Assembly: GCA_025936825.1 (NCBI GenBank) | Contig: JAICSO010000024.1 | Span: 1-60,906, forward strand | Length of the DNA stretch: 60,906 nucleotides | Direction of reading: 5' to 3' | Source: Terriglobales bacterium | GTDB lineage: Bacteria > Acidobacteriota > Terriglobia > Terriglobales > Acidobacteriaceae | Shown: positions 23,498-55,614 of the stretch, one piece after another | How positions within the stretch are numbered: position 1 is the stretch's first letter | Layout of the letters: each line of letters opens with the position of its first letter | Position numbers and translations under genes: made by a program | The notes under the pieces: generated by a model | The model's database searches: none | Told to the model about the DNA's origin: nothing | Seen by the model: only the letters and a program-made list of their open reading frames with translations

Positions 23498-23536
23498 ATC
23501 TTGTGGAATCCCCAACAAAATTGCTGCTGCTTGCTG

Positions 23537-24968: not shown

Positions 24969-26438
24969 CTACTGACGGCGGATCCTCCGGACTATGTCCA
25001 GCTCATTGAACTTCTTGTCGGGATCGGCCATAAGCGCGGGGAGGAGGGCATGGAAATCTTCTGCCATGCGGGCTATGGTCGCTCGCTCGAACAAATCCGT
25101 ATTGTATTCAAAATACCCGCGCGATTGTGGAGACGAAGGTAACTCCAGCGCGAGGTCGAATTTCGCGGTGTCATTGTCCACCAGATCGAGCGATTCGGTT
25201 TCGAGTCCGGCCAACTCGAGCTTCGCGGGAGCGGCATTCTGTACCCGGAAGTTGACCTGGAAAAGGGCATTCCGGCTCAGATCGCGGGGCGGCCGCACGG
25301 CCTCAACAATCTTTTCGAACGGCAACTCCTGGTTGGCAATCGCCCCGAGCGTCGTCTCGCGGACGCGGGCCATGAGTTCCCGAAATGTCAGCTCTCTGGA
25401 AAGCTTGGTCCGCAGCACCAGCGTGTTGATAAACATTCCAATAATGCTGTCTGTTTCCTTGCGGCGCCCAGCAAAGGGTGAGCCCACGGAAATATCGGTT
25501 TCACCGGTGTAGCAATTCAGGAAGACGTAGAAGCTGGACAGCAGGAGCATGTAAAGCGTAGCTCCGCCTTGCTGGGCAATGCGGTTTGCGGTGGCTAATA
25601 CTTCCTCGCTGAGTGGTACCGCGTACTTTGCGCCGTTCAGTCTCTGCACTGGAGGACGTGAATGATCGGCTGGAAGTTCCAGTTTGGCAGGCGCGCCACC
25701 CAGCTGCTGCTTCCAATGCGAGGTTAATTTCTCCAGAATTTCGCCCTGCAAGTACTTCCTCTGCCAGGTTGCGAAGTCGGCGTACTGCAACGGCGGCTCA
25801 GGCAGGGTGCACTCCTGACCTTCCGAGAACGCGGCGTACAGCGGCGCAAGCTCCTGGTAAAAAATCACCTTCGATCGCAGGTCCCAGGAAATATGGTGCG
25901 AGACGTGAAGCAGGATGTACTCATCGTCGCTGAGGCGATATAAAGTAGTCCGGATTTTCAGGTCTTTGGCCAGGTTGAAAGAGCGTGCGGAGTCTTCTTT
26001 CAGCAGGCCAGGCAGTTTGGCTGTTTTTTCCTCATCCCCCATGCTCCGCAAATCCACCTGACCCATTTCAACCGACCACTGCTTGGCAACCAGTGGAAGT
26101 GGCTGACCTTTGAAATTGACGAATAACGTCCGCAGCACCTCGTGCCGGCCAACGACGTTGTCCAATGCACGTTGCAAAGCAGCCACGTTGAGCGGACCGC
26201 GAATGCGAACCGGATACGGAACGTTGTAGGCGGAAGCGCCGGGGGTGAGCTGATCCACTAGCCACAGTTGCTGCTGACCAAACGACAAGACGCGCGGGTC
26301 TTTGGGGCCACGACGGGGGATCGCAAAAGTCGATTCGGCCGCACGCGCCTGCTTCAGCCGCTGCTGCAGAAGAACCTGCTTTTCAGGCGACAACTGCTGG
26401 ATCTTTTTATCGAGTTCTGCTGAGACGCCGGATTTCAA
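24969..26438 (-). CDS. stand-alone condensation-like protein with HHISWD active site
   Basis: This is a 489-residue single condensation domain. It is preceded by an N-terminal helix rich in Lys/Leu (LSPEKQVLLQQRLKQAR) of the kind seen before C domains as a docking element. C1 is LSFGQQQLWLVDQ. The C3 motif reads H181-H182-I-S-W-D-L, so His and Asp are kept while Gly is Leu. C5 (MFINTLVLRTKL) and the late QVNFRV strand match the neighbouring paralogue. Its start overlaps the stop of the A-T-TE gene by 4 bases (ATGA), so the two are translationally coupled. Confidence 0.86.
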   Translation of the reverse strand: MKSGVSAELDKKIQQLSPEKQVLLQQRLKQARAAESTFAIPRRGPKDPRVLSFGQQQLWLVDQLTPGASAYNVPYPVRIRGPLNVAALQRALDNVVGRHEVLRTLFVNFKGQPLPLVAKQWSVEMGQVDLRSMGDEEKTAKLPGLLKEDSARSFNLAKDLKIRTTLYRLSDDEYILLHVSHHISWDLRSKVIFYQELAPLYAAFSEGQECTLPEPPLQYADFATWQRKYLQGEILEKLTSHWKQQLGGAPAKLELPADHSRPPVQRLNGAKYAVPLSEEVLATANRIAQQGGATLYMLLLSSFYVFLNCYTGETDISVGSPFAGRRKETDSIIGMFINTLVLRTKLSRELTFRELMARVRETTLGAIANQELPFEKIVEAVRPPRDLSRNALFQVNFRVQNAAPAKLELAGLETESLDLVDNDTAKFDLALELPSSPQSRGYFEYNTDLFERATIARMAEDFHALLPALMADPDKKFNELDIVRRIRRQ

Positions 26439-29209
26439 CTGGCCCTGCCCCGCAGACGCGCTCCCCCAGGGAATTCGGCTGCGGCAGCAATAGGACCCGA
26501 CATCTGAGTGAGGTATTTCTCTATCGTTTCTGCCACCATGCCAACCATAGGTTCGTGCATCATTTCACGGGCAGCCGTGCCCTTCACCGGCATTTCGCAA
26601 TTCTGAATGGTGCCATGTACGAAGTGTTTCCAGCCTAAATCTGGATCGCTATACGGTCCGAGGTCGCGGAACAACAGGACGTCCCCCGAATAACTCTGAT
26701 GCCGGTACTGCCTTTCAGCCCGCCCGTTGATCATATAGAAATACGAGTTGCGCAGGAAGTCCGGCATTGGACTCCGATGGTGCAGATAGTAATCATAGAG
26801 GCGCAGACGAATCGGACGGGTAGACCGTCGAACAAAGCGTTCGGTGCTCTGGCGTAGTGCTGTCAAGCGCCATCCGAAGTGACGGCGAGTCCTGCGAGCA
26901 ACAAATCCAACCTTCTCGATTGGGCGAAGATTGCCGAACTCCTCCCAGCGCTGCCGGATTCGCTCCCTGCTTGACGCCGATTCTGCCTCGGCATCTGCGG
27001 TAACCGCGAACTCCGGCGTGCTCGGAGCGTTCAGCATTGCAAGAAGGTCTACTTTCTCCCCCATCCGCAGAAGTTGTTGGGCCATTTCGAAGATGATGAT
27101 CCCACCGAAACACCAACCTGCCAGCAGATAAGGACCATGCGGCTGCACAGTTTGTATCTCCTTGATGTAGTGCGCCGCCATGTCCTCTACGGTGGAGTGG
27201 GGCAGGTCAATCCCAAAAAGCCCCTGGTTTCGCAGTCCGTAGACCGGCCGATTGGGAGCTAGGCGTCGCGCCAAGGGGTAAAAGCCTAGGACGGTACCTG
27301 CGGCTCCGTGGACGCAGAATAAAGGGGTCTTCGTTCCTTGCGACTGAATCGGAACCAACGACGTCCATTTTCGCGCCGGTACATGCTGGTCGCGCAGCAA
27401 AGTGGCGAGCGTTTCGATGGTAGGAGCCTGAAATAGAGGAGCTGTCGGGAGGGCGGATTTCGCCAGTCTCATTTCAATTCGGGTCAGCAATTGTTGCGCC
27501 AGCAGCGAATCGACGCCCAGCTCAAGAATATTGTCGGTGATCCCGATTGGCTTGATCTTAAGTACATGTTCAAAAATCGAAACCAGTTCTTTCTCGAAGG
27601 AATCGCGGGCGGGCACGTGAAGACGCAGCAGGGCGGAGTTGTCCCGCGTGGGCCTGGGAAGGGCTTTTCGATCCACTTTCCCGTTGGGTGTCAAAGGAAG
27701 TGCATCCAGCACCACAAATGCTGCAGGAATCATGTACTCCGGTAATTTGGTTCGCAAAAACTCGCGCAATTTTTTTGTTGCCAGATCCTGGCCTGCAGCG
27801 GCCACGACGTAAGCCGCGAGGCGCTTGTCTCCAGGGGAGTCTTCCCTCGCGATGACCACGCACTGCCGAACAGCCGGGTAGGCATTTAGAACCGATTCGA
27901 CTTCCCCAAGCTCAATGCGGTAGCCGCGAATCTTGACTTGGTGATCTATGCGTCCCAAGAACGCTAGGTCGCCGTCCGGGAGCAGACGCACGAGATCCCC
28001 GGTCTGGTAGAGGCGTGCCCCGGCTTCATGACTCGAATGATCCGGAATGAATTTCTCCCTGGTTAGCTCGTCTCGATTCAGGTATCCGCGTGCAACACCT
28101 TCCCCACCGATCAGGAGTTGTCCTTCCTGCCCTGATGGAACAGGTTTGAGGTGCTCGTCGACAATTTGGAAGTAGGTGTTGCGAACCGCCCGGCCAATGG
28201 GAACGACACCTTCACCCATGGAAGGGACGCGATACAGGCTCGAATATATTGTCGTCTCGGTAGGGCCGTAGCCATTCCACACGGCGCCGCACCCGGCAAC
28301 AAGCGCGTTTGCGACTTCGCGAGGAAACGCTTCGCCTCCACAAACCACCTTCAGTTTCTTGTCCCCCTGCCAACCGGATTCGAGCAGCAGCCGAAAGAGC
28401 GCGGGTGTTCCCTGCAGAAATGTGGCTCCGGTTTCTTGGATCCGCGCCTGAAGCCGCTTGCCGTCTCGGGCGTCGTCCCGATTGACAATCGCGATGCTCG
28501 CACCAGAAACGAGCGGTAAGTAAATTTCCAGCCCGGCGATATCGAAGCTCAAAGTAGTGACCGACGCAAAAACATCGTTTGGCGCAATTTCGGTGGTCGC
28601 CTGCATCGACAGGAGAAGATTCACCACGCTGTGATGCTCGACCTGCACTCCTTTCGGCTTACCTGTGGAACCGGATGTGTAGATCACGTAGGCAAGGTTT
28701 TCTGGCCCGGAAACCGGATCCAGGTTCTCTTCTGAGTAGTTCGCAATCGCAGACCAATGCGCATCGAGCAACAAAATTTCTTGCGTGATGTTCGGAATGC
28801 GTTCAACCCCGTTTTGACGTGCGATCAGCACCCCGCAACCCGAATCGGACAAGATGTAGGAAATCCGATCAGGAGGATATGTCGGGTCGAGAGGAACATA
28901 TGCTCCGCCCGCCTTGAGTACGGCTAATAAGCTGACCACGGCATCCAGCGAATTCTGCAGACAGACTCCGACCAGAGTTTCTTTTGCCACGCTTCGGGCG
29001 CGCAGGCACCGGGCGAGTTGATTGGCGCGGCGGTTCAACTCGCTGTACGTCAACGACCGGCCATTCTCAAAAACTGCTACGGCATCCGGGCCAAGCGCAG
29101 TTCGCTGTTCGAACAGTTCGTGGATGCACAGCTGAGAAGAACCTGGATTTCCGGCATAGGAAGGACTGCCAGGAATCCTCAACTCGAAAGAAGGACGAAA
29201 TTGCGACAT
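26435..29209 (-). CDS. NRPS termination protein A-T-TE with cysteine thioesterase
   Basis: This is a 924-residue protein, first of the minus-strand NRPS operon. The adenylation domain (about 25-530) shows VIYTSGSTGKPKG, NGYGPTET, YQTGD and NGKVDRK. The carrier domain has Ser568 in LELGVDSLLAQQ. The thioesterase domain (about 625-900) has the nucleophile elbow GWCFGG with Cys700 in place of Ser. The code read by eye is D-I-L-Q-V-G-G-I-Y-K. Its opening DILQ matches the glycine code that I know, but the remainder does not match well. There is no condensation domain in cis, so the stand-alone C proteins downstream probably supply it. This is the only thioesterase in the window and it may release the product. 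Confidence 0.88.
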   Translation of the reverse strand: MSQFRPSFELRIPGSPSYAGNPGSSQLCIHELFEQRTALGPDAVAVFENGRSLTYSELNRRANQLARCLRARSVAKETLVGVCLQNSLDAVVSLLAVLKAGGAYVPLDPTYPPDRISYILSDSGCGVLIARQNGVERIPNITQEILLLDAHWSAIANYSEENLDPVSGPENLAYVIYTSGSTGKPKGVQVEHHSVVNLLLSMQATTEIAPNDVFASVTTLSFDIAGLEIYLPLVSGASIAIVNRDDARDGKRLQARIQETGATFLQGTPALFRLLLESGWQGDKKLKVVCGGEAFPREVANALVAGCGAVWNGYGPTETTIYSSLYRVPSMGEGVVPIGRAVRNTYFQIVDEHLKPVPSGQEGQLLIGGEGVARGYLNRDELTREKFIPDHSSHEAGARLYQTGDLVRLLPDGDLAFLGRIDHQVKIRGYRIELGEVESVLNAYPAVRQCVVIAREDSPGDKRLAAYVVAAAGQDLATKKLREFLRTKLPEYMIPAAFVVLDALPLTPNGKVDRKALPRPTRDNSALLRLHVPARDSFEKELVSIFEHVLKIKPIGITDNILELGVDSLLAQQLLTRIEMRLAKSALPTAPLFQAPTIETLATLLRDQHVPARKWTSLVPIQSQGTKTPLFCVHGAAGTVLGFYPLARRLAPNRPVYGLRNQGLFGIDLPHSTVEDMAAHYIKEIQTVQPHGPYLLAGWCFGGIIIFEMAQQLLRMGEKVDLLAMLNAPSTPEFAVTADAEAESASSRERIRQRWEEFGNLRPIEKVGFVARRTRRHFGWRLTALRQSTERFVRRSTRPIRLRLYDYYLHHRSPMPDFLRNSYFYMINGRAERQYRHQSYSGDVLLFRDLGPYSDPDLGWKHFVHGTIQNCEMPVKGTAAREMMHEPMVGMVAETIEKYLTQMSGPIAAAAEFPGGARLRGRAS

Positions 29210-33516: not shown

Positions 33517-36051
33517 ATGAGCAGACTCAGGGAGCGCGTTATCAGCCTGTCTTCGGATCGGCGAGCCCTGCTGGAAGAGCGCCTCTTACACGCGCACCGG
33601 CAGCGTTGGCGTCCGCCTACCATTCCGCGGCGGAACGCCTCCGAACCAGCCTTGCTTTCCTTTGGTCAGGAACAAATGTGGTTCCTCGACCAGCTCGATC
33701 CTGGAACTGCCACCTACAACATACCTGACGTGATGCGCCTTTCCGGGACACTGAACGTCGAGGCTCTGCAAGCTGGTTTTCGTTCCATTGTTTCGCGCCA
33801 CGAGGTGCTGCGTACGCGCATCGGCTCGGTTGATGGGGCCGCCATCCCCGCGCTCAACGATAGCTGGGAATTTGAAATCCGCCACTTCGATTTACGGAAT
33901 CTGCCTGACAAGGCGAAAGAAGCGGAAGCCCGCAAGATCATTCGCGAAAAAGTGCGCGAACCTTTCAACATCGCCCAGGATCTGATGCTTCGTGCAGCGC
34001 TGATACGTCTGCGGGACGACCAGCACTACTTGCTTGTGCTCACGCACCATATTGCCTGGGACGTCTCGTCGCGGATGGCGCTCTACAAGGAATTGAGCAC
34101 CGTTTACCAGGCCGCTCTGAATTCCGCTCCGACGAAGCTTCCGGAGCTACGTATCCAATACTCCGACTTTGCCTCCTGGCAGCGCAAACAACTTCAAGGC
34201 GAGATTTTTCAGGGTCACGCGGCGTATTGGCGCGAACAGTTGGGCAGCGCCGCGCACGTCCTGGAACTTCCGACCGACCATCCCCGCAAGTCGTCTTTGA
34301 CCTCCCGGGGAGCGAAACATTTCTTTTCGCTATCGCCGGGGCTAGTGGATCAGGCCAAGGCTCTTAGCCGCGAACAGAACGGTACGCTGTTCATGACGTT
34401 GCTGGCAGGCTTTGTCGCTTACCTGTACGGATTCACAGGGCAAGGTGACATCTCGATTGGCTCCCCAATGGCGGGTCGCAACTTCCCGGAACTCGAAGAC
34501 TTGATCGGCTATTTCATCAATACGACAGTGCTACGCTTCGAGGTCTCCCCGGAAACCACGTTTCGCTCGCTGGTCGAGCAATCGCGCAAAGTCACTCTGG
34601 GCGCACACGCGCATACGCTGCCGTTCGAGAAATTAGTTGAGATTGTTCGCCCCAAACGCGATCCCAGCCGCATGGCGCTGGTGCAAGTTAATTTTCGGGT
34701 GCAGAGCGGTGAAGCGCCGAAGCTGGAGTTGCCCGGCGTCAAAGTCGAACCGATGTTCCAGTTCATCGACACCGGCACCGCCAAATTTGATCTGGCGCTC
34801 GAACTGGCGCCGGACGGAAGTAAAGACAGTTTCTTTGAGTACAACAGCGATCTGTTCGAAGCCGCAACCATCACGCGTGTGGTGAGCGATTTTGAGCAGG
34901 CGCTTGCCGCGTTACTGCAGCAACCCGATCTGCCACTAGGATCCGTTAGTGCTCTTGGTCAACTCAGAAGGAGAAGCCGACCCATGGAAAACGTAGCCGA
35001 AAAGCCCAAGATGAAAAGCCTGAAAGATTTCAAGCGCAAAGCCGTCGATCTGTCGCAGCCCACGGTCAAAACCAGCCAACTGCGTCCCGACCAGAAGCTG
35101 CCGTTGATCGTCTCGCCAACCGACGCCAACATCGACCTGGCGGAGTGGGCCGAGAACAATCGCGACTTCATCAGCGAAAAGGTCCTCGAGCATGGTGCCG
35201 TGCTTTTCCGGGGTTTTAACCTGCCGACGCCGGTGGAATTCGAGCGCGCTGCTGCCGCCATCTGCAAGGAACTGTATTCCGAATATGGCGATCTGCCGCG
35301 CGAAGGCGTTGCTGGAAAGATCTACAAATCGACGCCGTATCCCGCCGACAAGATGATCTTGTATCACAACGAAAGCTCGCATCTTTCGAGTTGGCCGACG
35401 CGGATCAATTTCTTCTGCGCTCTGCCCGCTCAAGAAGGCGGCGCAACCCCGGTGGCCGATTGCCGTGAAGTGGCGAAGGTTATGGATCCCGAGATCCTGC
35501 GCACCTTCGAAGAGAAGGGTTTGAAGTATGTGCGCAACTTCTCGCCTGGGCTCGATGTGAGCTGGCAGCAGTTCTTCCACACCAACGACCGCAGTGTAGT
35601 CGAGAAACAATGCGAGGAAGCGGGCATGACGTGCGAGTGGACAGCCAACGACGGACTTCGTGTCGGGCAGAAATGCGTGGCTGTTACCCGCCATCCGAAA
35701 ACGGGCGAAAAGATTTTCTTCAACCAGGTCCAATTGCACCACGTGTATTGCCTGGACAAAGAAACTCGCGACTCGATGCTTAAGATTTTCAAGCGCGAGG
35801 ACCTGCCACGGCATGTCTACTACGGTGATGGTTCAGAGATTCCAGATTCCGTGATGGAGCACGTCGGCGAGGTTTACGAGAAGTGCGCCGTGCGCTTCCA
35901 GTGGCAGAAAGGCGACATGATCAGCGTCGACAATATGATGGTTTGCCACGCGCGCGATCCGCACGTGGGCGATCGCAAGATCTGCGTAGCCATGGGACCG
36001 CTCATCAGCGCCAAAGATGCTGCTGCCCAAGCTGCCGCAATCAAGAACTAA
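33517..36051 (+). CDS. condensation-like domain fused to a TauD/SyrP-type beta-hydroxylase
   Basis: This is an 844-residue protein. Residues 1-25 form a docking-like helix (LSSDRRALLEERLLHAH). Residues about 35-460 are a condensation domain whose C3 motif is H177-H178-I-A-W-D182-V, with His and Asp kept and Gly lost. Residues about 515-830 are an Fe(II)/2-oxoglutarate dioxygenase of the TauD/TfdA class, SyrP-like. The metal triad is H617-x-E619 (YHNESSH) and H811 (VCHARDP), with the cofactor Arg in VGDRKIC. SyrP-type enzymes hydroxylate the beta carbon of carrier-bound Asp. The next gene is an Asp-type A-T protein, which fits. An in-frame ATG with its own ribosome-binding site at 34984 may also give the hydroxylase alone. 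Confidence 0.9.
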   Translation: MSRLRERVISLSSDRRALLEERLLHAHRQRWRPPTIPRRNASEPALLSFGQEQMWFLDQLDPGTATYNIPDVMRLSGTLNVEALQAGFRSIVSRHEVLRTRIGSVDGAAIPALNDSWEFEIRHFDLRNLPDKAKEAEARKIIREKVREPFNIAQDLMLRAALIRLRDDQHYLLVLTHHIAWDVSSRMALYKELSTVYQAALNSAPTKLPELRIQYSDFASWQRKQLQGEIFQGHAAYWREQLGSAAHVLELPTDHPRKSSLTSRGAKHFFSLSPGLVDQAKALSREQNGTLFMTLLAGFVAYLYGFTGQGDISIGSPMAGRNFPELEDLIGYFINTTVLRFEVSPETTFRSLVEQSRKVTLGAHAHTLPFEKLVEIVRPKRDPSRMALVQVNFRVQSGEAPKLELPGVKVEPMFQFIDTGTAKFDLALELAPDGSKDSFFEYNSDLFEAATITRVVSDFEQALAALLQQPDLPLGSVSALGQLRRRSRPMENVAEKPKMKSLKDFKRKAVDLSQPTVKTSQLRPDQKLPLIVSPTDANIDLAEWAENNRDFISEKVLEHGAVLFRGFNLPTPVEFERAAAAICKELYSEYGDLPREGVAGKIYKSTPYPADKMILYHNESSHLSSWPTRINFFCALPAQEGGATPVADCREVAKVMDPEILRTFEEKGLKYVRNFSPGLDVSWQQFFHTNDRSVVEKQCEEAGMTCEWTANDGLRVGQKCVAVTRHPKTGEKIFFNQVQLHHVYCLDKETRDSMLKIFKREDLPRHVYYGDGSEIPDSVMEHVGEVYEKCAVRFQWQKGDMISVDNMMVCHARDPHVGDRKICVAMGPLISAKDAAAQAAAIKN
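34968..34986 (+). promoter_or_regulatory. internal ribosome-binding site and ATG at the hydroxylase boundary
   Basis: AAGGAG at 34968-34973 lies 10 bases before an in-frame ATG (34984, residue 490 of the fusion), just where the condensation domain ends and the hydroxylase part begins (MENVAEKPKMKSLKDF). It would yield a 355-residue hydroxylase. This may be a working internal start or the trace of a past gene fusion. Confidence 0.5.
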
Positions 36052-36080
36052 GGCCAGGAGACTAGTACCAGGAGATCAGG

Positions 36081-39000
36081 ATGCCGGAATCGACAGGATT
36101 TCAACTTTCGCAGCAGCAGAAGCAGCTTTGGCTGACTGGTGCGGATGAGTCTGCGTTCAACAGCGTAATCACTGTGGCGCTCGATGGAGCGGTCAATGCC
36201 GCGAAGCTGAAAGACGCGGTGGGTCAAGTGGTCGCGCGTCATGAAGCCCTGCGGACCACGTTCGAGCGTCGCCCCGGAATGCGGGTTCCGTTACAGGTCG
36301 TCCGCGGCACGCTGGCTCCTGCATGGGAGGAGATCGGGTCGGCGTCGGCCTCCACGGTCGACCAAACCGTCGCCCGTGAAGCGAACGAGACATTCGACCT
36401 GCACAACGGGCCTGTGCTTCGCGCCAAGCTGTTGAAGCTTGCCGATAACAAGCACGTGCTCGTAGTCTCCACACCCACTCTCTGCGCTGACGTGGCCAGC
36501 CTGCAGAACGTAATTCGCGAGATCGCCGCTTGCTACGCAGGTGAAACGGCATCAGATGAAGTCTTTCAGTACCCCGACTTCTCCTCGTGGCAAAGCGAAT
36601 TGGTCCAGGCGGAGGAAGACGAGGACGCGAAAGCTGCGAAGCAATTCTGGAGCGAACTGCTGGCGGAAACTTCGATTCACCGCCTGCCGTTCGAAAAGCA
36701 GGCGAGCGGAGCCTTCAAACCCGCGACGATTCCAGTTGAAATTCCGGCAAATGCGAAGGGTAAGGACTCTGCATTCTTTGCCGCGTGCTGGCAAATCTTG
36801 CAGTGGAAGTTGACCGGCCAGAACGCAATCACCGTTTCTCATGTGAGCGACGGCCGAAACCACGAGGAAGTTGCAGCGTCAGTCGGCTTGTTCAACAAAA
36901 CGCTGCCGATTCCTTATGAGTTCGATGGCAGCCGCAATTTCAGTGCAGTCGCGGAAGATCTGAAAACGGTCTCTCGGCGCGCTTACGAGCAGCAAGACTA
37001 TTTCGTGCCCGGCGAAAACGCCGAAGTGCCGGTGGCGTTTGTCGCTGAGAACTTGCCCGCGACGTTCTCCGCAGGCGGAGTGGACTTCAGCGTTCTGACT
37101 GCGAGTGCGAACAGGTTGCGTTCGCGCATCGAGTTTCGGGTGTTGAATTCCGGCAAGGCGGAACTGAAATACGACAGCCAGTGTTTCGCACCCGACGCAG
37201 TCAAGCGCATTGCTTCCCAGCTTTCGATTCTGCTTAAGAGCGCTGCCGAAAAGCCGTCTGCTTCGATCGCGGAACTCGAAATCCTGGATGCCGCTGAAAA
37301 ACAGCGCGTAGTTGTCGAATTCAACAAAACTGGCACGGAATTTGGCGGGGCAAAGTGCATTCACTACCTCTTCGAAGAACAAGCCGCCAAGACTCCGAAT
37401 CAGCCGGCGCTTCGCTTTGGTGAGACAGTTCTGACCTATGCAGAACTGAATGCCCGGGCGAATCAACTGGCACATCTGCTCCGCAGTTCTGGTGTGAAGC
37501 CGGACACGGCGGTTGGACTGTGCGTTGAACGTTCATCCGAAATGATCATCGGAGTGCTCGGAATTCTAAAGGCCGGTGGCGCCTACGTTCCGCTCATTCC
37601 TGACAATCCGAAGGATCGTCTTGCCCACCAGCTTTCCGAGACCAAGGCTCCGGCCCTGATCACCGAAAAAAAGTTGTTGGCCAGCCTGCCGCAGTTCTCC
37701 GGCAAGATCATTTGCTTTGATCAGGCTCAAGCGACACTTGCGGCTGAACCCACGACGAATCCCGACCACGTAAACGCGCCGGAAAACACGGCTTACGTGA
37801 TCTACACCTCCGGCTCAACCGGTGTGCCGAAGGGCGTCGCGGTATCGCACGCGAACCTGGTGAACTACAGCAACTTCATTTGCGACAAGCTGAAGGTGGG
37901 CAATGAGGCATTCAACTTCGCAACCGTTTCCACGCTCGGCGCGGACCTCGGCAACACCGCGGTCTTCCCTTCCCTGATCTCGGGCGGGTGTTTGCATGTG
38001 ATCAGCTACGAAATGGCGATGGCGGGAAATCTCTTCGCCGAGCACACGAAGAAACACCCGATTGATGTTCTAAAGATCACGCCGTCGCACCTGACATCGC
38101 TGCTCGCATCTCCGGAAGGTGCAAACATGCTTCCGCGCAAGTACCTGGTTCTCGGCGGCGACGCTGCGAGCTGGGACCTGGTGAAGCGGGTGCAGTCCGC
38201 GAGCAAGTGCGCGGTAATCAACCACTACGGACCTACGGAAGCGACGGTTGGTTGCTGCACGTTCAGCGTGAATGACAACAATGTGAGCGAGTGGGCGCCG
38301 AAAACGGTTCCCATCGGCAAGCCCATCGCGAATGACTCGATATACATGCTCGACTCACTGCTTCGCCCCGTACCCGTTGGCGTTCCCGGCGAACTTTGCA
38401 TCGGTGGCGCGGGCATCGCGAAGGGATATCTGAACCAGCCGCAGCAGACCGCAGAGCGCTTCGTCAAAAATCCGTTTTCACAGGACGCGAATGCGCGCAT
38501 TTACCGGACAGGCGATCTGGCGCGCTTCCTGCCCGACGGCAACATTGAATTCCTGGGCAGAATTGACCAGCAGGTCAAGATTCGCGGATTCCGCGTCGAA
38601 CCGGCAGAAATCGAAAACGTTTTGAAACAGCACCCGGCTGTGCAACAAGCCCTGGTGATTCCGGTTGCGGACAAATCCGGCGACAAGCGACTGGTCGCCT
38701 ACGTAGTGGCGAAGAAGCCTGCACCGAGCAATGACGACCTGCGCACGTATCTTGCAAGCAAGCTTCCTGACTACATGGTCCCGTCGGCGCTGGTGCAGAT
38801 CGATGCCGTACCCCTCACCAAGAACGGCAAAGTCGATAACGCCGCGCTGCCTTCACCCGAGTCGGTTGCCACGGAGAAGTCGCACGTCGCACCTCGCAAT
38901 GACGCCGAGAAGCAGCTGGTGGAGATCTGGCGCGAAGTTCTTCGCATCGACAACTTCGGAGTGGAAGACAACTTCTTCGAACTCGGTGGGCACTCGTTGC

Positions 39001-39233
39001 TGGCAACGCAGGTGATCTCGCGTGTCCGCAGCGCGTTCCACGTTCAATTGCCATTGCGCAGCCTGTTCGATGCACCGACAGTCGCCGGACTCGCGGGCGA
39101 GATTGCTCGCACTCCACAGAGCTCTGAGGATGAAGAACTCGCCAAGCTGCTGAGCGAACTTGAGGGCCTCTCGGACGAAGAAGCCGAACGCTTGCTCGCC
39201 AGCGAGGGCGGATCCAGCTCGGAGACGCGTTAA
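36081..39233 (+). CDS. NRPS protein: degenerate C-like domain, A (Asp-type), T
   Basis: This is a 1050-residue protein. Residues 1-410 have condensation-domain fold signatures (FQLSQQQKQLWL, RHEALRTTF), but the C3 motif is T131-P132-T133-L-C-A-D, so both catalytic histidines are lost. The domain resembles the non-catalytic interface domains reported to recruit Asp beta-hydroxylases. The A domain (about 430-930) reads D-L-T-K-V-G-H-V-G-K, one conservative change from the Asp code D-L-T-K-V-G-H-I-G-K. The T domain carries Ser972. The tail (ELEGLSDEEAERLL) is an acidic docking-like helix. The gene follows the C-TauD gene by 29 bases and overlaps the SDR gene by one base (TAATG). It predicts carrier-bound Asp that is hydroxylated by the neighbour. 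Confidence 0.92.
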   Translation: MPESTGFQLSQQQKQLWLTGADESAFNSVITVALDGAVNAAKLKDAVGQVVARHEALRTTFERRPGMRVPLQVVRGTLAPAWEEIGSASASTVDQTVAREANETFDLHNGPVLRAKLLKLADNKHVLVVSTPTLCADVASLQNVIREIAACYAGETASDEVFQYPDFSSWQSELVQAEEDEDAKAAKQFWSELLAETSIHRLPFEKQASGAFKPATIPVEIPANAKGKDSAFFAACWQILQWKLTGQNAITVSHVSDGRNHEEVAASVGLFNKTLPIPYEFDGSRNFSAVAEDLKTVSRRAYEQQDYFVPGENAEVPVAFVAENLPATFSAGGVDFSVLTASANRLRSRIEFRVLNSGKAELKYDSQCFAPDAVKRIASQLSILLKSAAEKPSASIAELEILDAAEKQRVVVEFNKTGTEFGGAKCIHYLFEEQAAKTPNQPALRFGETVLTYAELNARANQLAHLLRSSGVKPDTAVGLCVERSSEMIIGVLGILKAGGAYVPLIPDNPKDRLAHQLSETKAPALITEKKLLASLPQFSGKIICFDQAQATLAAEPTTNPDHVNAPENTAYVIYTSGSTGVPKGVAVSHANLVNYSNFICDKLKVGNEAFNFATVSTLGADLGNTAVFPSLISGGCLHVISYEMAMAGNLFAEHTKKHPIDVLKITPSHLTSLLASPEGANMLPRKYLVLGGDAASWDLVKRVQSASKCAVINHYGPTEATVGCCTFSVNDNNVSEWAPKTVPIGKPIANDSIYMLDSLLRPVPVGVPGELCIGGAGIAKGYLNQPQQTAERFVKNPFSQDANARIYRTGDLARFLPDGNIEFLGRIDQQVKIRGFRVEPAEIENVLKQHPAVQQALVIPVADKSGDKRLVAYVVAKKPAPSNDDLRTYLASKLPDYMVPSALVQIDAVPLTKNGKVDNAALPSPESVATEKSHVAPRNDAEKQLVEIWREVLRIDNFGVEDNFFELGGHSLLATQVISRVRSAFHVQLPLRSLFDAPTVAGLAGEIARTPQSSEDEELAKLLSELEGLSDEEAERLLASEGGSSSETR

Positions 39234-40116: not shown

Positions 40117-43100
40117 TTGGGTTCGACCGACATTCAGCGCATGAAACTTGCAGTGGCTGCCAGCTTCACGGCTGAGCCGCTGTTGGACTCGCTCGCATTC
40201 TGGGGAGAGAAGATCGAGTGGCGCCCTGAGATTGAGTTTGCCGCCTACAACCAGGTATTCCAACAACTCCTCGATCCTGCCGGCCTGTTTGCCAGCAACC
40301 GCAGGGGCGCGAATATCCTTCTGGTTCGTCCCGAAGACTGGGTGCGGTACGGACAAGAGGCGGGCAGTGCCCCGAATGCCGCAAAGCTACTTGCGACAGC
40401 AAACGAATTCGTTACCGCGGTACGTGACGCAGCGCGGAGATCGTCGGTCCCTTACCTCGTACTGCTGTGTCCGAGTTCGCCGATAAAGTGGAACGATTCC
40501 GCTCTGAAGCAAGCTGAAGATCACATCGTCATATCGCTCCAAGGTGCGGTTGGCGTCCATGTGTTCAGTTCGCGCGAACTGCTGGCAGCGTACGCTTCCA
40601 GCAATTATTACGACGCCGACCGCGACGAGATGGGACACATTCCCTTCACAGCAGATTTTTTTGCTGCGATCGGAACGGTGATCGCGCGCAGACTCCACGC
40701 CCTGCAACAGCCTCCTTATAAAGTTATCGCCGTCGATTGCGACGAAACCCTTTGGGCTGGGGTTTGCGGCGAAGTTGGGGCAAGGGGAATCGAGATCGAT
40801 GCCGGGCGCAGAGCGTTCCAGGAATTCCTGATCCAGCAGCAACAAGCGGGCATGCTGCTCTGCCTCTGCAGCAAAAACAATCCCGAAGACGTGGATGAAG
40901 TTTTCCGGCTGCGGACCGACATGCCGCTCAAGCGCGAGCACATTACCGCGGCTCGCGTGAATTGGAATCCCAAGCCAGGGAATTTGCGCGAACTGGCGGA
41001 CGAACTTCAACTTGGCCTCGACAGCTTCATCTTTATTGACGACAATCCGCTCGAATGCGGTCAGGTCAAGGCTGCCTATCCTCAAGTGCTCACGCTGTCG
41101 TTGCCAGCTTTAGCAGACGCTATCCCGCAGTTCCTTGCGAACGTGTGGACGTTCGATAAAGTCGGCATCACGGAAGAAGACCGGAAGCGCGCCGAGTTTT
41201 ATCGCCAAAACCGCGAACGGGATGAGTTCCAGCAACAGGCCCCGTCGCTCGCGAATTTTCTCGCCGGACTTGAGCTCAAGATCGACATCAGTCCTCTTAG
41301 CGCGGAGCAATTGCCCCGTGCCGCGCAACTCACGCAGCGCACCAACCAGTTCAACTGCACAACCATTCGCCGCACCGAAGATGAAATGCGCAAGCTATCG
41401 ACCTCGGGTGAGCGCGAGTGGCTCACCGTAAGCGTCAGCGATCGCTTTGGTGAGTACGGATTGGTGGGATTGCTCGGCTATGCGGCGGCGTCTGATGCCC
41501 TGAAAGTAGACACCTTTCTTTTGAGCTGCCGTGTATTGGGACGCGGCGTTGAGCACCGCATGTTGCGCAAGCTTGGCCAGATCGCGCAGGCACGATCTCT
41601 CGCCCGCGTTGACGTTCAGTTCATCCCCAGTAAGAAGAATGCACCGGCACTTACATTCCTCGAAGCGGTAGCACCAACGTACAAGCAGGCGGACGGCAGC
41701 GATTTCGTTTTCCGCATTCCGACGCCGGATGCTGCTGAGATTTCTGAATCGCAGATCCTCGCCACCGCCCAAGCCGCTGCCGAAGCGGTGAAGGAACAAC
41801 AGTCCACAGCGAAACCCGTTGTGGCTGCGCCTGCCCGCTCAGATCTCATTCAAGAGATCGCATCGCGTCTCACGAACGCCGGCGCGATCGTGGAGGCAAT
41901 TCGGGTTCAGAAGGCTCCTGCGACGGCAACCGCCCAAGCGGATTCGAAGCTGACGCACTATGAGCAAGCCGTCGCCGATGTCTGGAGCGAGGTCCTTGGC
42001 GTTTCAGATCTGACTTCCTCGTCAGACTTCTTCGAGCTCGGCGGCGATTCCCTACTGGCTACCCAAGTGATTTCTCGGCTGCGCCAAATTTCAAAAGTTC
42101 GACTGCACCTGCAAGACATCTTTGAGCACACGACCATTGGCGCGTTGGCAAAATGTGTTCAGAAGGCTTCGACCAAGCCGCAAAAGATCGCTCGCACAGA
42201 CCAGAAACAAGAGTCGTCGAAGGTATCTCGCGACACTGCGGGCGGCGAGATTCTCCGGCGTCAAAAGGATCAATCCGCATGCGCGCTGTCGTTTGGACAG
42301 CAGCGCTGGTGGTTCCTGAACCAGTGGGCGCCAGGAACAGCGGACCACCTCTCGCTGGTGCTTCGCCTCAAAGGCGACTTGAACCAATCTGCGCTCCAAC
42401 GCGCGCTCGATGCAGTTACGGACCGTCACGAGGTCCTGCGCACGCGATACAAACTGGTGGACGGCAATCCGCTGCAGGTCATTCTTCCTGCCGCTCCTGT
42501 CCATATCGCCTTTGCAGATCTGCAGCACTTGCCCGAGGCCCATCGCGAACCGGAAACGACCAAGATTTGCGAGCAAGAATTCCGCAAGGCCTTTGACTTG
42601 TCGTCCGAGCCTATCTTACGGCCAACGTTGCTGAAGCTTTCGCCAACCGATCATGCGCTGGTGCTGGTGATGCATCACATCGCCTCGGATGGGTGGGCGC
42701 GTGGCGTGTTGCTGCGCGAATTGGAGTCGTTCTACGCCGCGTTTGCCAGCGACAAGCAACCATCTCTTCCGGAATTACCGGTCCAGTATGCCGACTATTC
42801 ACTCTGGCAGCGGGACCGCATGGCGAAGGGCGACCTCGAAGAGCAGCTGACATTTTATAAGAAGGTGTTGGCAGGAGCGCCTGCGGTACTCGAGTTGCCA
42901 ACCGATTTCCCGCGCCCCAGCATTCAAGATCTTCGCGGCGGCGTTCACATCCGCTTCGTTCCTAAGGATCTTCTGGATTCACTGCAGTCCCTGAGCCACA
43001 AAGAAGGCGTCACGCTGTTCATGACGCTACTCGCCGCGTATCAGGTACTGCTATATCGCTACAGCGGGCAAGAAGACTTGCTCGTGGGCACTCCGGCAGC

Positions 43101-45549
43101 AGGGCGTAACCACCCCAGCGTTGAAGGCCTGATTGGCTGCTTCATCAACATGGTGGTGTTCCGCAACCAGGTCCGCGGCGATGAAAGCTTTCGCCATCTG
43201 CTAGCGCGAGTACGAAATGTTGCGGTGGCTGCCCAAGATAATCAAGACCTTCCCTTCGAGCGCCTCGTCGATGAACTCCAGCACACGCGCAGTTTAAGTG
43301 GAGCTCCGGTTTTCCAGGCAGTGTTTGCGCTGGAAAACCTTCTTTCGCAACCTCATTTCCCGAAACTCGAAGTCGACGTTCGCGAAGAGGAGACGCGCAC
43401 CGCGTTCCACGACATCAGCCTGTTCGTCGCTCCCGGCAGCGGCGGCTTGCGCGTGCGCTTTGAATACCGGACTGATCTCTTCAAACCGGATACTATCGAG
43501 CGGATGGCCGAGCATTTCGAGAATTTGCTCGCCGCAATTGCGCAGAGTCCCGCCCAGACGGTTGGCGCGTTGCCGATGTTGAGTGAAGTAGAACGCGCGC
43601 GCCTGCTGCATCAATGGAACATCTTCAAGCAATTTCCAGTCGACGTTTGCATTCATCAGCGCTTTGAAGAGCAAGTGAAAAGGACTCCGGTCAACATCGC
43701 AGCAAGCTATGAAGGCCAGACCCTCAGTTACGCGGAGTTGAATGCCCGCGCCAACCAACTCGCCCGCTATCTGCAACGCATGGGTGTGGGACCGGACTCT
43801 CTGGTCGGACTTTGTGTGGAGCGTTCACTTGACATGGTGGTTGCAATCCTAGGGATCTTGAAGGCTGGCGGAGCCTATCTGCCGCTCGATCCGCGCTATC
43901 CCAAAGACCGTCTCGGCTTTATGGTCGAGGATGCGAAGCCTACGGTGGTATTGACTCATTACGAGCAAAAGGATTCGCTGCCCGGTGTCGCCGGCCAGGT
44001 GGTTGCACTCGATGCCGACTGGATCGAGATCGAACGCGAAGATGCGACCGATCTCCCGAGCGTCGCAGCTCCGGAACATCTCGCATATGTGATCTACACG
44101 TCCGGATCAACTGGACGTCCGAAAGGCTGCCAGATCACGCATGCCAATGTCGTGCGGCTTATGGATGCGACCTACGATTGGTATAAGTTCGACGAGCATG
44201 ATGCGTGGACGATGTTCCATTCTTATGCCTTCGACTTCTCTGTGTGGGAATTGTGGGGCGCGTTGCTTTATGGAGGCAAAGTCGTCGTCGTTCCGTACTT
44301 GGTGAGCCGCTCGCCGGAGGACTTCTACCGGCTGCTAGTGGCCGAAAAAGTGACAGTGTTGAATCAGACGCCTTCGTCGTTCCGGCAACTCATGTATGCC
44401 GAGGAGATGTTGGGCACATCTCGTGACCTCGCGCTTCGCTATGTGATCTTCGGCGGAGAAGCGCTCGAACTGCAGAGCCTCAAGCCTTGGTTTGACCGCC
44501 ACGGCGACAAGAAGCCGCAACTGGTGAACATGTACGGCATCACCGAGACAACGGTTCATGTCACCTACCGGCCGATCTCAGTCGATGACACAAACGGCGG
44601 AAGCGTGATCGGCTGCGCGATTCCGGATCTGCAGGTCTACGTCCTCGATCGCCAGATGCAGCCTATGCCGATCGGCGTGCCCGGGGAGATTTATGTTGGC
44701 GGGGCGGGCGTGGCGCGTGGCTATCTGAACCGCCCGGAGTTGACCGCGGAGCGATTTATCCCTGATCCCTTCCGACCCGGTACAAACCGGCGTCTATACA
44801 AAACTGGCGATCTGGCGAGGCGACTGTCAAACGGCGATCTCGAATACTTGGGTCGCATCGATCTTCAGGTTAAGATTCGCGGCTTCCGTATCGAACTGGG
44901 TGAGATTGAGAGCGTGCTGGCGAAGCATGCCGCGGTGCGTGAGGCAGTTGTCATTCTGACCAACGACGCATCGGGGGAAAAGCGCCTTGTCGCCTACTAC
45001 ACGCCGCAGACTGGACAGAAGGCGACGAATGCGGAGCTGTTTGCGTTCCTGAAAGACCGCCTGCCTGAGTACATGGTCCCAGCAGCTTTTATTGAACTGG
45101 AGCGCATGCCGCTGAACTCGAACGGTAAGATCGACAAGAAAGCCTTGCCCGCAGCCGACCTTGCCCGGCCTGAGCGGACCGAAGACTTCGTCGTTCCCGA
45201 AACACCCCTAGAAGAAGAAGTTGCCAGCGTTTGGAAAGAAGTCCTTGGCCTGGAGCGCGTGGGAGTCAATGAGAATTTCTTCGAGATTGGCGGGCACTCG
45301 CTGCTGGCAACGCGCGTCATCATGCTGTTGCGCAGCCGGCTTGGCCTGAGCATCTCATTGCGCCTGCTGTTCGAATATCCAACCATTGCCGGAATGGCAA
45401 CAGCCTTGATGGACACGCTGCTCGATGAAGCGGAAGAGCCGGCGCTACGGGAAATGATTTCGGAAGTAGAAAACTTGTCCGACGAAGAAGTTCGCCACCT
45501 CCGAACCGAGGGTGCCAACCTACGGCAGAACGGCGTGGCCGCTTCGTAG
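40117..45549 (+). CDS. NRPS loading protein FkbH-T-C-A(Thr-type)-T
   Basis: This is a 1810-residue protein. Residues 1-545 are FkbH-like: an SGNH-like N-terminal part, an HAD-IIIC domain with D207-C-D209-E-T catalytic motif, and a GNAT-like part (DRFGEYGLVGLLGY). FkbH enzymes take a C3 unit from 1,3-bisphosphoglycerate and put glyceryl on a carrier. T1 has Ser645, C is canonical (H853-H854-I-A-S-D-G-W), the A domain (about 1180-1690) reads D-F-W-N-I-G-M-V-H-K, identical to the threonine code, and T2 has Ser1728. The tail is an acidic docking helix (LSDEEVRHL). Without an N-terminal docking helix it should start the chain. TTG 40117 has GGAG upstream; ATG 40141 is an alternative start. Confidence 0.93.
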   Translation: MGSTDIQRMKLAVAASFTAEPLLDSLAFWGEKIEWRPEIEFAAYNQVFQQLLDPAGLFASNRRGANILLVRPEDWVRYGQEAGSAPNAAKLLATANEFVTAVRDAARRSSVPYLVLLCPSSPIKWNDSALKQAEDHIVISLQGAVGVHVFSSRELLAAYASSNYYDADRDEMGHIPFTADFFAAIGTVIARRLHALQQPPYKVIAVDCDETLWAGVCGEVGARGIEIDAGRRAFQEFLIQQQQAGMLLCLCSKNNPEDVDEVFRLRTDMPLKREHITAARVNWNPKPGNLRELADELQLGLDSFIFIDDNPLECGQVKAAYPQVLTLSLPALADAIPQFLANVWTFDKVGITEEDRKRAEFYRQNRERDEFQQQAPSLANFLAGLELKIDISPLSAEQLPRAAQLTQRTNQFNCTTIRRTEDEMRKLSTSGEREWLTVSVSDRFGEYGLVGLLGYAAASDALKVDTFLLSCRVLGRGVEHRMLRKLGQIAQARSLARVDVQFIPSKKNAPALTFLEAVAPTYKQADGSDFVFRIPTPDAAEISESQILATAQAAAEAVKEQQSTAKPVVAAPARSDLIQEIASRLTNAGAIVEAIRVQKAPATATAQADSKLTHYEQAVADVWSEVLGVSDLTSSSDFFELGGDSLLATQVISRLRQISKVRLHLQDIFEHTTIGALAKCVQKASTKPQKIARTDQKQESSKVSRDTAGGEILRRQKDQSACALSFGQQRWWFLNQWAPGTADHLSLVLRLKGDLNQSALQRALDAVTDRHEVLRTRYKLVDGNPLQVILPAAPVHIAFADLQHLPEAHREPETTKICEQEFRKAFDLSSEPILRPTLLKLSPTDHALVLVMHHIASDGWARGVLLRELESFYAAFASDKQPSLPELPVQYADYSLWQRDRMAKGDLEEQLTFYKKVLAGAPAVLELPTDFPRPSIQDLRGGVHIRFVPKDLLDSLQSLSHKEGVTLFMTLLAAYQVLLYRYSGQEDLLVGTPAAGRNHPSVEGLIGCFINMVVFRNQVRGDESFRHLLARVRNVAVAAQDNQDLPFERLVDELQHTRSLSGAPVFQAVFALENLLSQPHFPKLEVDVREEETRTAFHDISLFVAPGSGGLRVRFEYRTDLFKPDTIERMAEHFENLLAAIAQSPAQTVGALPMLSEVERARLLHQWNIFKQFPVDVCIHQRFEEQVKRTPVNIAASYEGQTLSYAELNARANQLARYLQRMGVGPDSLVGLCVERSLDMVVAILGILKAGGAYLPLDPRYPKDRLGFMVEDAKPTVVLTHYEQKDSLPGVAGQVVALDADWIEIEREDATDLPSVAAPEHLAYVIYTSGSTGRPKGCQITHANVVRLMDATYDWYKFDEHDAWTMFHSYAFDFSVWELWGALLYGGKVVVVPYLVSRSPEDFYRLLVAEKVTVLNQTPSSFRQLMYAEEMLGTSRDLALRYVIFGGEALELQSLKPWFDRHGDKKPQLVNMYGITETTVHVTYRPISVDDTNGGSVIGCAIPDLQVYVLDRQMQPMPIGVPGEIYVGGAGVARGYLNRPELTAERFIPDPFRPGTNRRLYKTGDLARRLSNGDLEYLGRIDLQVKIRGFRIELGEIESVLAKHAAVREAVVILTNDASGEKRLVAYYTPQTGQKATNAELFAFLKDRLPEYMVPAAFIELERMPLNSNGKIDKKALPAADLARPERTEDFVVPETPLEEEVASVWKEVLGLERVGVNENFFEIGGHSLLATRVIMLLRSRLGLSISLRLLFEYPTIAGMATALMDTLLDEAEEPALREMISEVENLSDEEVRHLRTEGANLRQNGVAAS

Positions 45550-46545: not shown

Positions 46546-49500
46546 ATGGGCAACGAAGGCACAAGTCGAAAGCCGGAACTCTCCGCGGCAAAGAAGGCAC
46601 TGCTGGAGGCACGACTGCGCCAGAACGCGGCGAAGGACACTGATGCCATTTCACGTCGCAATCAAACCGAAGCGCCGCTCTCGTTTGCCCAGCAGCGACT
46701 GTGGTTTCTGGATCAATTCTCACCCGGATCCTGCGCCTACAACGTGCCGCGCGTTTTCCGACTCGCCGGAACGCTCAATGTTCAAGCTCTACAGAGTGCG
46801 TTGGATTCTCTCGTAGCGCGACACGAGATACTGCGAACAGTTTTCAAGATGGCCCAGGCAGAGCCAGTGCAGGTGGTCCAACCAGCTCGCTCGGTGCAAT
46901 TGACGTCCATCGATCTCTCGCTGACACCGGAAAGCCAAAGAAGAGCGAAGCTGGACGATGTGGTGATGGCCGAGGTCAAGCGTCCTTTCAACCTTTCGTC
47001 TGACCTGATGCTTCGCGCGACGCTGATTCGGCTCGCGGCAGAGGAACACGTCCTGGTGGTCATGAGCCATCACATTGCTTCCGACGGCTGGTCAAAGGGC
47101 GTCATGTTCCGCGAACTGGCGGCGTTTTACAACGCCGCACTATCGAACGCCACAGCTGCGATGGCGGCTCTGCCCATTCAATACTCTGATTTTGCCGGTT
47201 GGCAGAAAGAATGGGTGAAAGGCGTACGCCTGCAGAAACAGGCCGTCTACTGGAAGAAACAACTTGAGGGCGCACCAGCGCTCCTGGAACTTCCAACCGA
47301 CTTCCCCCGCCCCGCGGTGCAGGGCTTTGAAGGCGTAACCGAACTCTGCGTCTTCCCTGCCACGCTGCTCACGAATCTGAAGGCCCTGAGCCACCGCGAA
47401 GGCGTCACCCTGTTCATGACCCTGTTCGCGTCGTTTCAGGTCATGCTCGCGCGCTACTCCGGGCAGGACGATATCGTCGTCGGAACTCCCATCGCCGGGC
47501 GCGTTCGCGCAGAACTCGAACCTCTGATCGGTGACTTCGTCAACATGCTGGCGGTGCGCACCGATCTGTCCGGGAATCCGAGTTTCCGCGACCTTCTGCA
47601 GCGCACCAAAAGAGTCGCGCTCGACGCTTACGACAATCAGGACCTCCCTTTTGAGAGTCTGGTTGAGGAACTCGAGCACGGCCGCGATATGAGCCGCGCC
47701 CCGGTGTTTCAGACAATCTTCATTCTTGAAACCGCGCCGCCTCCGCCGCCGGCAATGCAGGGGCTGAAACTCGAGATTCTCGATTACGACACTCCGACCG
47801 CAAAAAATGACCTCATCCTCATCCTTGCGGAAGATGCTGCGGGTCTGAAGGTGAAGCTCGAATACCGTACCGACCTGTTCAGCAAGACAACCATCGACCG
47901 GTTCCTTGCGCAGTACCGCACGCTGCTCGAATCGATTGTGGTTGATCCCGCTCGGCCGATTACGAAGCTGGTCATCTGCGCTCCGGAAGAACAAAAACAA
48001 CTGGCCGCATGGAACGACACCGCGCACGACAAACTCGATGGTTGCCTGCACCAGTTGTTTGAAGACCAGGTTGCTCGCACGCCAGCCGCGGTCGCGTTGC
48101 AATTCAAAGACGGCAAGCTGAGCTATCGCGAGTTCAATGAACGGGCAAATCAACTCGCACACCACCTGATCGGGCTCGGTGTGAAGCCTGATTCCCGAGT
48201 TGGTGTCTACGTGAACCGCTCGCCGGAAATGCTGATTGCATTAATGGGCATCATGAAAGCCGGTGGCGCTTACGTCCCTATTGATCCTGCTTACCCGCGT
48301 GACAGGGTGGAGTTCATGCTGCAGGATTGCGGCGCCGAGGTGCTAGTAACCGACTCCACACTTGTCGACACGATTTCGACCCATGGTGCGAAGGCCGTAT
48401 GTTTGGATCGCGATGCACTAGAACTCGCAAAGCAAAGCAGGGCGAACCCGAAGACAAGTGTCACGCGCGCAAATCTGAGCTACGTGATCTACACATCTGG
48501 CTCGACCGGGCGGCCCAAGGGCGTCCAACTTGAGCACCGCAACGTGGCGAACTTTATTGGCTACGTTCAGAGGACGTTCCAGGTTGGATCGAATGACGCA
48601 TACCTTGGTGTCGCTTCCATGTCTTTCGACGCGTCAGTTCTGGATTTCTATCTGCCACTGTCGGTAGGGGCAAAATTTGTAATCGTCGATGCAGATACCA
48701 CTCGCGATCCAAGCGCATTGACGGAAACTATTTCGCGCGCCGGCGTCACCGTAATGCACGCCACGCCTTCAACCTGGCGCAGCCTCGTGGATGCCGGATG
48801 GAAAGGCAGTTCCACCTTCAAGTTGCTCAGTGGGGGCGAAGCATTGAGCTGGGACCTTGCGAAGGAGCTCGTGCCTCGCTGCGCCGCGTTGTGGAACCTC
48901 TACGGTCCCACGGAAACAGCCGTTTACTCGGCGATTCACAAAGTCAGCAGTTCCGATGGCACGGTGCTCGTTGGTCGTCCCATCGACAACACGCAAATCT
49001 ACATTCTGGACGCATTTCAACAGCACACACCGATCGGCGTGCCCGGAGAAATCTGCATTGCCGGCGCCGGCGTGGCTCGTGGCTATCTGAATCGCCCGGA
49101 GTTGACGGCGGAAAGATTCGTAAATGATCCGTTCGTGAGCGGCGCGCGCATGTACCGCACCGGCGACCTCGGACGATTCCGTCCGGATGGCATCATTCAA
49201 TGCCTGGGGCGTCTCGATCACCAGGTCAAACTGCGCGGCTTCCGCATTGAACTCGGCGAAATCGAAAGCGTTCTCATGCAATTTGCGGGCATTCGCCAAG
49301 CGGTCGCCGATGTGAAAGCCAGCCACTCCGGCGACAAGCGCCTGGTTGGATATCTTGTGGTTGGACCGGGCGCAGAGCCGTCCCTTGCGGACCTGCGCGC
49401 ATTTCTGAAGACGAAGTTGCCCGAGTACATGGTGCCGGCGACCTTTATGGTTCTGGAGAAGCTCCCGGTGTCCCCAAACGGCAAACTGAATCGTAGTGCG

Positions 49501-53205: not shown

Positions 53206-53239
53206 CAAAAAACTAAAAGGTGCGTCGAAGGGGCAGCGC

Positions 53240-55554: not shown

Positions 55555-55614
55555 GCGTAATCCGTCTCCTTGTCCCTGAATCTGTGCAACTGCCTGCCCA
55601 AACTCCAAAAGCCA

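Follow-up and report, generated by a model that had tools for sequence, protein, structure and literature searches.

A candidate beta-hydroxyaspartate elongation module divided between a C-TauD protein and an interface-A-T protein in a peptide synthetase cluster of a Terriglobales bacterium

We have analysed a stretch of 60,906 nucleotides from a Terriglobales bacterium of the family Acidobacteriaceae (assembly GCA_025936825.1, contig JAICSO010000024.1, forward strand), here called the window, with regard to two adjacent genes of a nonribosomal peptide synthetase (NRPS) cluster. The window is one entire contig (C123) of a genome of 6.54 Mb in 141 contigs. The first gene encodes a condensation (C) domain fused to an oxygenase domain of the TauD family, and the second, 36081-39233(+), which starts 29 bases to the 3' side of the first, encodes a condensation-like domain (C*), an adenylation (A) domain and a carrier (T) domain. 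The features of the gene pair are as follows.

33517..36051, plus strand: C-TauD didomain protein of 844 aa (Pfam, metal ligands, TauD tree)
33649..34962, plus strand: Condensation domain of the didomain, with the motif HHIAWDV
35035..36048, plus strand: TauD/SyrP-type hydroxylase domain, H617-x-E619 ... H811
36081..37271, plus strand: interface-type condensation-like domain, with TPTLCADV in place of HHxxxDG (motif, trees)
37371..39098, plus strand: Asp-type A domain (DLTKVGHVGK) and carrier domain (LGGHS, Ser972)

The 33517-36051(+) protein matched PF00668 (Condensation) at residues 45-482 with 295.1 bits and PF02668 (TauD) at residues 535-825 with 134.1 bits. The TauD domain lies at the C-terminus of this NRPS polypeptide, in the same frame as the C domain, and the didomain is complete, its stop-to-stop frame being 860 aa. 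No T domain stands ahead of the C domain in the protein, and none was found in frames of at least 40 aa within the 303 bases to the 5' side of the gene. For the TauD domain, NCBIfam gave no family at an E-value of 0.001. A first-pass annotation of this DNA had proposed a metal site made up of H617-x-E619 and H811; we observed these residues as claimed, and they were invariant across all 39 aligned TauD rows, and so were R813 and R820. A tree of the 39 rows, 14 of which are fused to a C domain (the window's included), placed the window domain within an 18-row set (support 99/98) that holds 12 of the 14 C-fused rows, itself counted, together with 6 unfused ones; within that set it lies in a 10-row set (97/94). 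The cyanochelin B hydroxylase, which is likewise fused to an NRPS, belongs to the same 18-row set, and the stand-alone TauD proteins of Janthinobacterium and Azospirillum loci fall apart from the window domain. These observations point to a SyrP-like, NRPS-fused Asp beta-hydroxylase (IbetaH_Asp type) as the probable identity of the domain.

The 1050-aa protein encoded by the second gene matched Condensation at residues 8-307 (153.8 bits), AMP-binding at 431-784 and PP-binding at 945-1006. In its C* domain, as had been noticed earlier, the catalytic His residues are replaced, P132-T133 of the segment STPTLCADV occupying the HH position. The relationships of this domain were followed in three C trees: a quick tree of 108 of our 128 C rows (those longer than 380 aa), a careful tree of 55 hand-picked rows that included 15 of the 21 interface rows, and a tree of 63 rows that took in the six interface rows left out of the second as well as 30 C rows from other genomes. 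In the 108-row tree, 16 interface-type rows, the window's included, formed one group with L032, a row that keeps one His (support 100). The 15 interface rows of the 55-row tree formed one group at 100/99, recovered in every one of the 200 bootstrap trees; the bootstrap of this tree was not fully settled, and two long-branched interface rows meet in it. In the 63-row tree the interface rows grouped at 100/100. The earlier proposal that an interface-type domain heads the Asp module is borne out by the two latter clades. Interface rows lay within about 1 kb of a TauD open reading frame (ORF) in 20 of 21 cases, a nearness that is partly by construction, since the presence of a TauD gene was the reason for fetching the loci. 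By motif and tree position, the A-linked C* domain appears to be an NRPS interface domain. The naming of such domains, and of the hydroxylase subtypes, is said to come from a PNAS paper of 2019.

The A domain code, read from the alignment with what we take to be the GrsA numbering as position key, is DLTKVGHVGK, and this code, together with the place of the TauD domain in the 39-row tree, upholds the earlier claim of an Asp-type A domain beside a SyrP-like hydroxylase. A code could be read in 18 interface modules; 16 of them fit DLTK[VIL]G[HE][VI]GK, and 13 of these carry the Asp-type His. Could the module hydroxylate Asn, either alone or alongside Asp? E-type codes, DLTK[VI]GEVGK, which we take to mean Asn, occur in 3 of the 18 modules, and the window's own code is on record for both Asp and Asn domains (PMC12283262). 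Yet the His at code position 322 is common to 12 other interface modules, the OH-Asp module of tistrellabactin loads its residue by the same code DLTKVGHVGK (PMC10391617), and the characterised relative, cyanochelin B, yields OH-Asp (PMC12628792), all of which makes an Asn-hydroxylating module very improbable.

The C domain of the didomain had been described in the first-pass annotation as a second condensation-like domain with an HHIAWDV motif. A reading of it as a further interface-like domain, or of HHIAWDV as a degenerate motif, was not supported. The motif, at residues 177-183, consists of HH 177-178, W181, D182 and V183, so that in comparison with HHxxxDG both His and the Asp are kept and Val replaces Gly. 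A Gly is absent from that place in 30 of the 98 HH-bearing C rows; only the Trp is rare: of 106 non-interface C rows, three have it before the motif Asp or Glu, and all of those belong to the window (by a corrected count the rows number 21 interface and 107 non-interface, not 106, row L033 C1056 being non-interface). In each of the three C trees the fused C domain was placed apart from the interface clade, in the company of C domains whose HH is intact; that is, it sits with catalytic C domains, a grouping that the annotation itself had named as refuting. It could still be held that both C-like domains are non-catalytic docking domains serving a self-contained hydroxylation station, for both adjoin hydroxylase or Asp domains, and HHIAWDV lacks the Gly of HHxxxDG and has the rare Trp before its Asp. 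We regard such an arrangement as very unlikely: the fused C domain retains HHxxxD, as do 13 of 13 TauD-fused C domains (of 14) in which the motif could be read, the 55- and 63-row trees place it outside the interface clade, and its equivalent in cyanochelin B is needed for the joining of Gly to OH-Asp.

This last point is drawn from a plasmid locus. The CHARACTERISED relative is L060, on plasmid 2 of Leptolyngbya sp. NIES-3755 (AP017310.1), where one ORF reads C-A(DAWTIAAVCK)-T-C-A(DILQLGLIWK)-T-C-TauD, the next reads interface-A(DLTKIGHVGK)-T, and the next after that begins C-A(DVWHFSLIDK). We take DAWTIAAVCK to be a Phe-type, DILQLGLIWK a Gly-type and DVWHFSLIDK a Ser-type code. The codes of L060, so interpreted, are colinear with the residue order of cyanochelin B, Phe2-Gly3-betaOHAsp4-Ser5 (PMC12628792), and from coordinates and codes we infer that the first two ORFs are CcsFGH and CcsI. 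Since the L060 interface domain is without both His, the TauD-fused C domain is the sole His-bearing C domain between Gly3 and OH-Asp4.

Because the fused C domain of the window groups with catalytic C domains, the gene pair would be a split elongation module and not only a hydroxylation station. We consider it highly probable that the two proteins form one elongation module, C-(beta-hydroxylase)-interface-A-T, divided at the boundary between TauD and interface domain. The A domain would, to judge from its code, load L-Asp onto its own T domain. The interface domain should not condense, both of its catalytic His being gone; by analogy with published interface domains, it would present the Asp-S-T thioester to the TauD domain in trans. 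The TauD domain, whose metal ligands are in place, would then hydroxylate the Asp beta-carbon with the use of Fe(II), O2 and alpha-ketoglutarate, the predicted product being L-threo beta-hydroxy-Asp, as suggested by kinship with NRPS-fused hydroxylases. Finally, the fused C domain would link the upstream chain to the amine of beta-hydroxy-Asp. Of the self-contained hydroxylation station proposed at first pass, we retain the hydroxylase along with the Asp module and its interface domain; the limitation to a station is given up, since the fused C domain is of the catalytic type.

Several observations weigh against the split module. The closest relatives of the window TauD domain, from genomes G147 (64.7% identity) and G112 (63.8%), are unfused. 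The fused C domain has the Trp ahead of its motif Asp and Val for Gly, and it lies elsewhere than 11 of the 13 other TauD-fused C domains, which cluster, weakly (85/94). The interface domain shares no more than 34.6% identity with any of its relatives and sits on a long branch, and the code DLTKVGHVGK has been recorded in a survey for Asn-activating as well as for Asp-activating domains (PMC12283262). As the fused C domain stands outside the lineage of most TauD-fused C domains, the case for its role is made by position and motif and not by orthology. Also outside the 11-member group are the TauD-fused C domains of L035 and L055. The 108- and 55-row trees had given an impression of wide scatter among TauD-fused C domains, which the denser 63-row tree overturned.

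The fused C domain has its nearest kin within the window. In the 55- and 63-row trees a clade (100/99) unites it with the two free-standing C domains encoded at 23537 and 24969 and with one free-standing C domain of G112 (L025), a genome of the same family. In the 63-row tree a nine-row group (99/96) is made up of this four-member clade, three further C domains from modules of the window, and two rows from other genomes. G112 carries C and TauD as separate genes. Either the window's line newly joined two free-standing parts into the didomain, or the didomain was split in G112. To judge from these relationships, the hydroxylase may have acquired its C partner from among the cluster's own C domains, the hydroxylase and the interface domain having stayed together. 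A search for the HHxxW lineage gave matches in 23 of 396 genomes; at the loci fetched from these matches, with at most 3 candidates scored per genome, no Trp motif was found outside the window, and the 30 added C rows from other genomes left the lineage at no fewer than 4 members, the same as before. With so few candidates scored per genome, the lineage may be under-counted.

The annotation had further considered the fusion of a hydroxylase to a condensation domain to be unusual. This view has to be abandoned, the same layout being found in cyanochelin B (PMC12628792), in potashchelin (PMC7100376) and at 10 of 11 plasmid loci. The TauD query matched 87 plasmid records, and the 11 loci were fetched around strong TauD hits; in 10 of them a C-TauD is followed by an NRPS gene that opens with a C-like domain and an A domain, with a T domain. 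The interface-type motif was read in 9 of the 10, the tenth (L059) giving a partial C match, and in the eleventh, from Gemmatirosa (L063), the TauD is unfused. At the Trichormus locus (L055) the A and T domains are encoded in two separate frames, with a methyltransferase gene between the C-TauD and interface genes. Within the phylum, relatives of the TauD domain at an E-value of 1e-20 were present in 16 of 396 genomes, the window's own counted, which has one match. A scan of genome contigs with the TauD domain gave a single named relative, Thalassomonas, and viral contigs held no relative of the C-TauD fusion.

Comparison with known systems defines what is particular to the window. In cyanochelin B, as in the window, a C-TauD at a protein end is followed by an interface-A(Asp)-T gene, the identities between the two systems being 52.0% for the TauD domain, 32.8% for the interface domain, 39.9% for the fused C domain and 46.6% for the A domain. 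There, however, the C-TauD closes a long C-A-T-C-A-T-C-TauD protein whose own T domain supplies the donor, and a putative ferric siderophore receptor gene lies nearby. Potashchelin, which we liken to the window by domain order alone, has C-TauD-C-A(Asp)-PCP; its PtcB and PtcC are FAAL-ACP-C-TauD and C-A(Asp)-PCP, respectively, the loading order of taiwachelin, and differ from the window in the fatty-acyl loading domains fused in front (PMC7100376). The free-standing form of C-TauD was found in the window, in Trichormus variabilis ATCC 29413 (WP_011316893.1, annotated merely as 'condensation domain-containing protein') and on plasmid pn1 of Nostoc sp. UHCC 0926. The latter two share with the window a two-domain C-TauD and an interface-A gene downstream, but their C domains belong to other C lineages, and in Trichormus, unlike the window, a discrete carrier protein stands directly ahead of the C-TauD (L055, plasmid C, 6121-8960). 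The segment 6121-8960 of L055 is a parallel dissociated form of C-TauD, with its C domain from another lineage. Stand-alone TbetaH_Asp enzymes belong to the TauD superfamily. The example of tistrellabactin, MobD, works with a partner Asp A domain of the same code as the window's (PMC10391617); enzymes of this type are unfused to an NRPS, and our comparison was made with the Janthinobacterium and Azospirillum TauD proteins. G112 resembles the window in having a free-standing C domain, two C*-A(Asp)-T modules and FkbH-T, and differs in its unfused TauD. The window pair is thus one of the known C-IbetaH_Asp/interface-A(Asp)-T kind, distinct in its free-standing form and in the unusual lineage of its C domain. 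Among the open-access titles listed, none dealt with this cluster.

The surrounding genes of the cluster are as follows.

21878..23518, minus strand: free-standing A domain, with no carrier domain (domain search)
23537..24952, minus strand: free-standing C protein, motif HHVAWEF, of the lineage of the C domain of C-TauD (motif, trees)
24969..26438, minus strand: free-standing C protein, motif HHISWDL, of the same lineage (motif, trees)
26435..29209, minus strand: A-T-TE protein without C domain, A code DILQVGGIYK
40117..45549, plus strand: FkbH-T-C-A-T protein, A code DFWNIGMVHK (Thr-type) (TIGR01686, 292.8 bits)
46546..60905, plus strand: further NRPS genes, C-A-T, C-A-T and C-A-T-C, the last one cut by the contig end
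53240-55608, minus strand: amino-acid kinase and class III aminotransferase, inside the NRPS cluster

The final 141 bases of the window (60766-60906) are identical to the start of contig C20, in an exact overlap, and the same stretch is encoded again at the C20 end. Contig C32 opens inside an A domain and continues with A-T-C-A-T and a weak TE match (32 bits); genes for a polysaccharide-type flippase and a phosphopantetheinyl transferase are also present there. The assembly line seems to run on into C20 and C32, interrupted by a gap, the link from C20 to C32, between which no overlap was seen, being inferred.

Several further genes in and around the cluster were noted. The amino-acid kinase of the 53240-55608(-) pair is aspartokinase-like, and the pair adjoins an A domain whose code, DVSEVSTIDK, resembles what we take to be Orn/Dab codes; the two enzymes may supply diaminobutyrate. 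A sulfotransferase gene (PF00685, PF13469) lies between NRPS genes at 45571-46527(+), and the product may be sulfated. The protein encoded at 31702-33213(+) is MaoC-like in its N-terminal part and a short-chain dehydrogenase (SDR) in its C-terminal part; the glyceryl unit discussed below might be a substrate for it and for the SDR at 39233. Just upstream of the forward genes, 29553-31657(+) encodes a Wzm/Wzt-type ABC exporter pair (ABC2_membrane; ABC_tran with Wzt_C), of a type usual for polysaccharides and not for peptides. At 20165-21466(-) a protein kinase domain is followed, in one protein, by a weak TonB C-terminal-like region that is under the Pfam cut-off.

The extreme dissociation of this assembly line, with free-standing A, C, C and C-TauD proteins, and its fragmented contig end might be taken to mean that the genes are a decayed or non-expressed remnant. 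We find this hard to credit, as both frames of the pair are open, the metal ligands and the carrier Ser are intact, and a similar gene set is kept in G112.

Another interpretation of the dissociation concerns the FkbH module, which in the window and in G112 (L025) is found close to the hydroxy-Asp module. FkbH domains of NRPSs load glycerate in vioprolide and cystomanamide, and in vioprolide the FkbH-loaded glycerate is used with an ester-forming C domain (PMC8949500). The FkbH-T part of the 40117-45549 protein is probably a glyceryl-loading step inside the NRPS, and its FkbH-loaded carrier has no upstream C domain in cis. Seven carrier domains are encoded in the window: one at 26435 (A-T-TE), that of C*-A(Asp)-T, two at 40117 (FkbH-T and Thr), and those at 46546, 49846 and 56184. 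Three carrier modules are without a working C domain in cis (C*-A(Asp)-T, FkbH-T and A-T-TE), and three C domains are without a T domain of their own (33517, 24969 and 23537). A starter module needs no C domain. From this three-to-three match we would tentatively suggest a dissociated line in which a locally expanded HHxxW[DE] C lineage serves the three C-less modules in trans, the hydroxylase riding on a trans-acting C domain, newly built from a free-standing TauD and a free-standing C domain, and not on the preceding module; we hold this to be doubtful. If true, the C domains acting in trans would also join FkbH-loaded glycerate, beside beta-hydroxy-Asp, through an ester or an amide bond.

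The annotation had also suggested a metallophore as the product, beta-hydroxy-Asp being a potential chelator of Fe(III). Kindred C-fused hydroxylases do lie near TonB receptors on plasmids of Leptolyngbya boryana, Gloeothece and Janthinobacterium, those of the latter two being annotated as siderophore receptors, and a putative ferric aerobactin receptor is encoded near the hydroxylase on the cyanochelin B plasmid. Against this, the matches in the present genome to the TonB receptor PF00593 (40), FecCD PF01032 (1) and Peripla_BP_2 PF01497 (4) families are all off the NRPS contigs C123, C20 and C32; the Lys/Orn oxygenase family PF13434 gave one match, of 39.1 bits, on contig C44 (genes for catechol or salicylate were not searched for); the transport genes that are linked are the Wzm/Wzt-type pair and the polysaccharide-type flippase; the genome has a single match to the window TauD; and syringomycin-type hydroxylases, which fall inside the IBH_Asp clade, are excluded by the antiSMASH metallophore rule (PMC12971057). 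The lack of linked uptake genes is weak evidence, because uptake genes alone recovered 56% of metallophore clusters in a published test set, with 80 false negatives (PMC12971057). A metallophore is not supported by the linked DNA, and we regard it as an unlikely product of this cluster. Contig C61 carries, at 28805-47372, a TonB receptor together with the sole FecCD match of the genome and three periplasmic binding protein matches, which is probably a locus for the uptake of a metal or of cobalamin and lies on a different contig from the cluster.

The present cluster, whose contigs are without recognised iron-uptake genes, cautions against taking beta-hydroxy-Asp genes on their own as a sign of a siderophore. 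The small size of the natural pair (844 and 1050 aa) makes it suited to in vitro reconstitution of interface-dependent hydroxylation. With these observations, the layout of a C-hydroxylase followed by interface-A-T, known from siderophore clusters, is extended to a cluster with an FkbH module.

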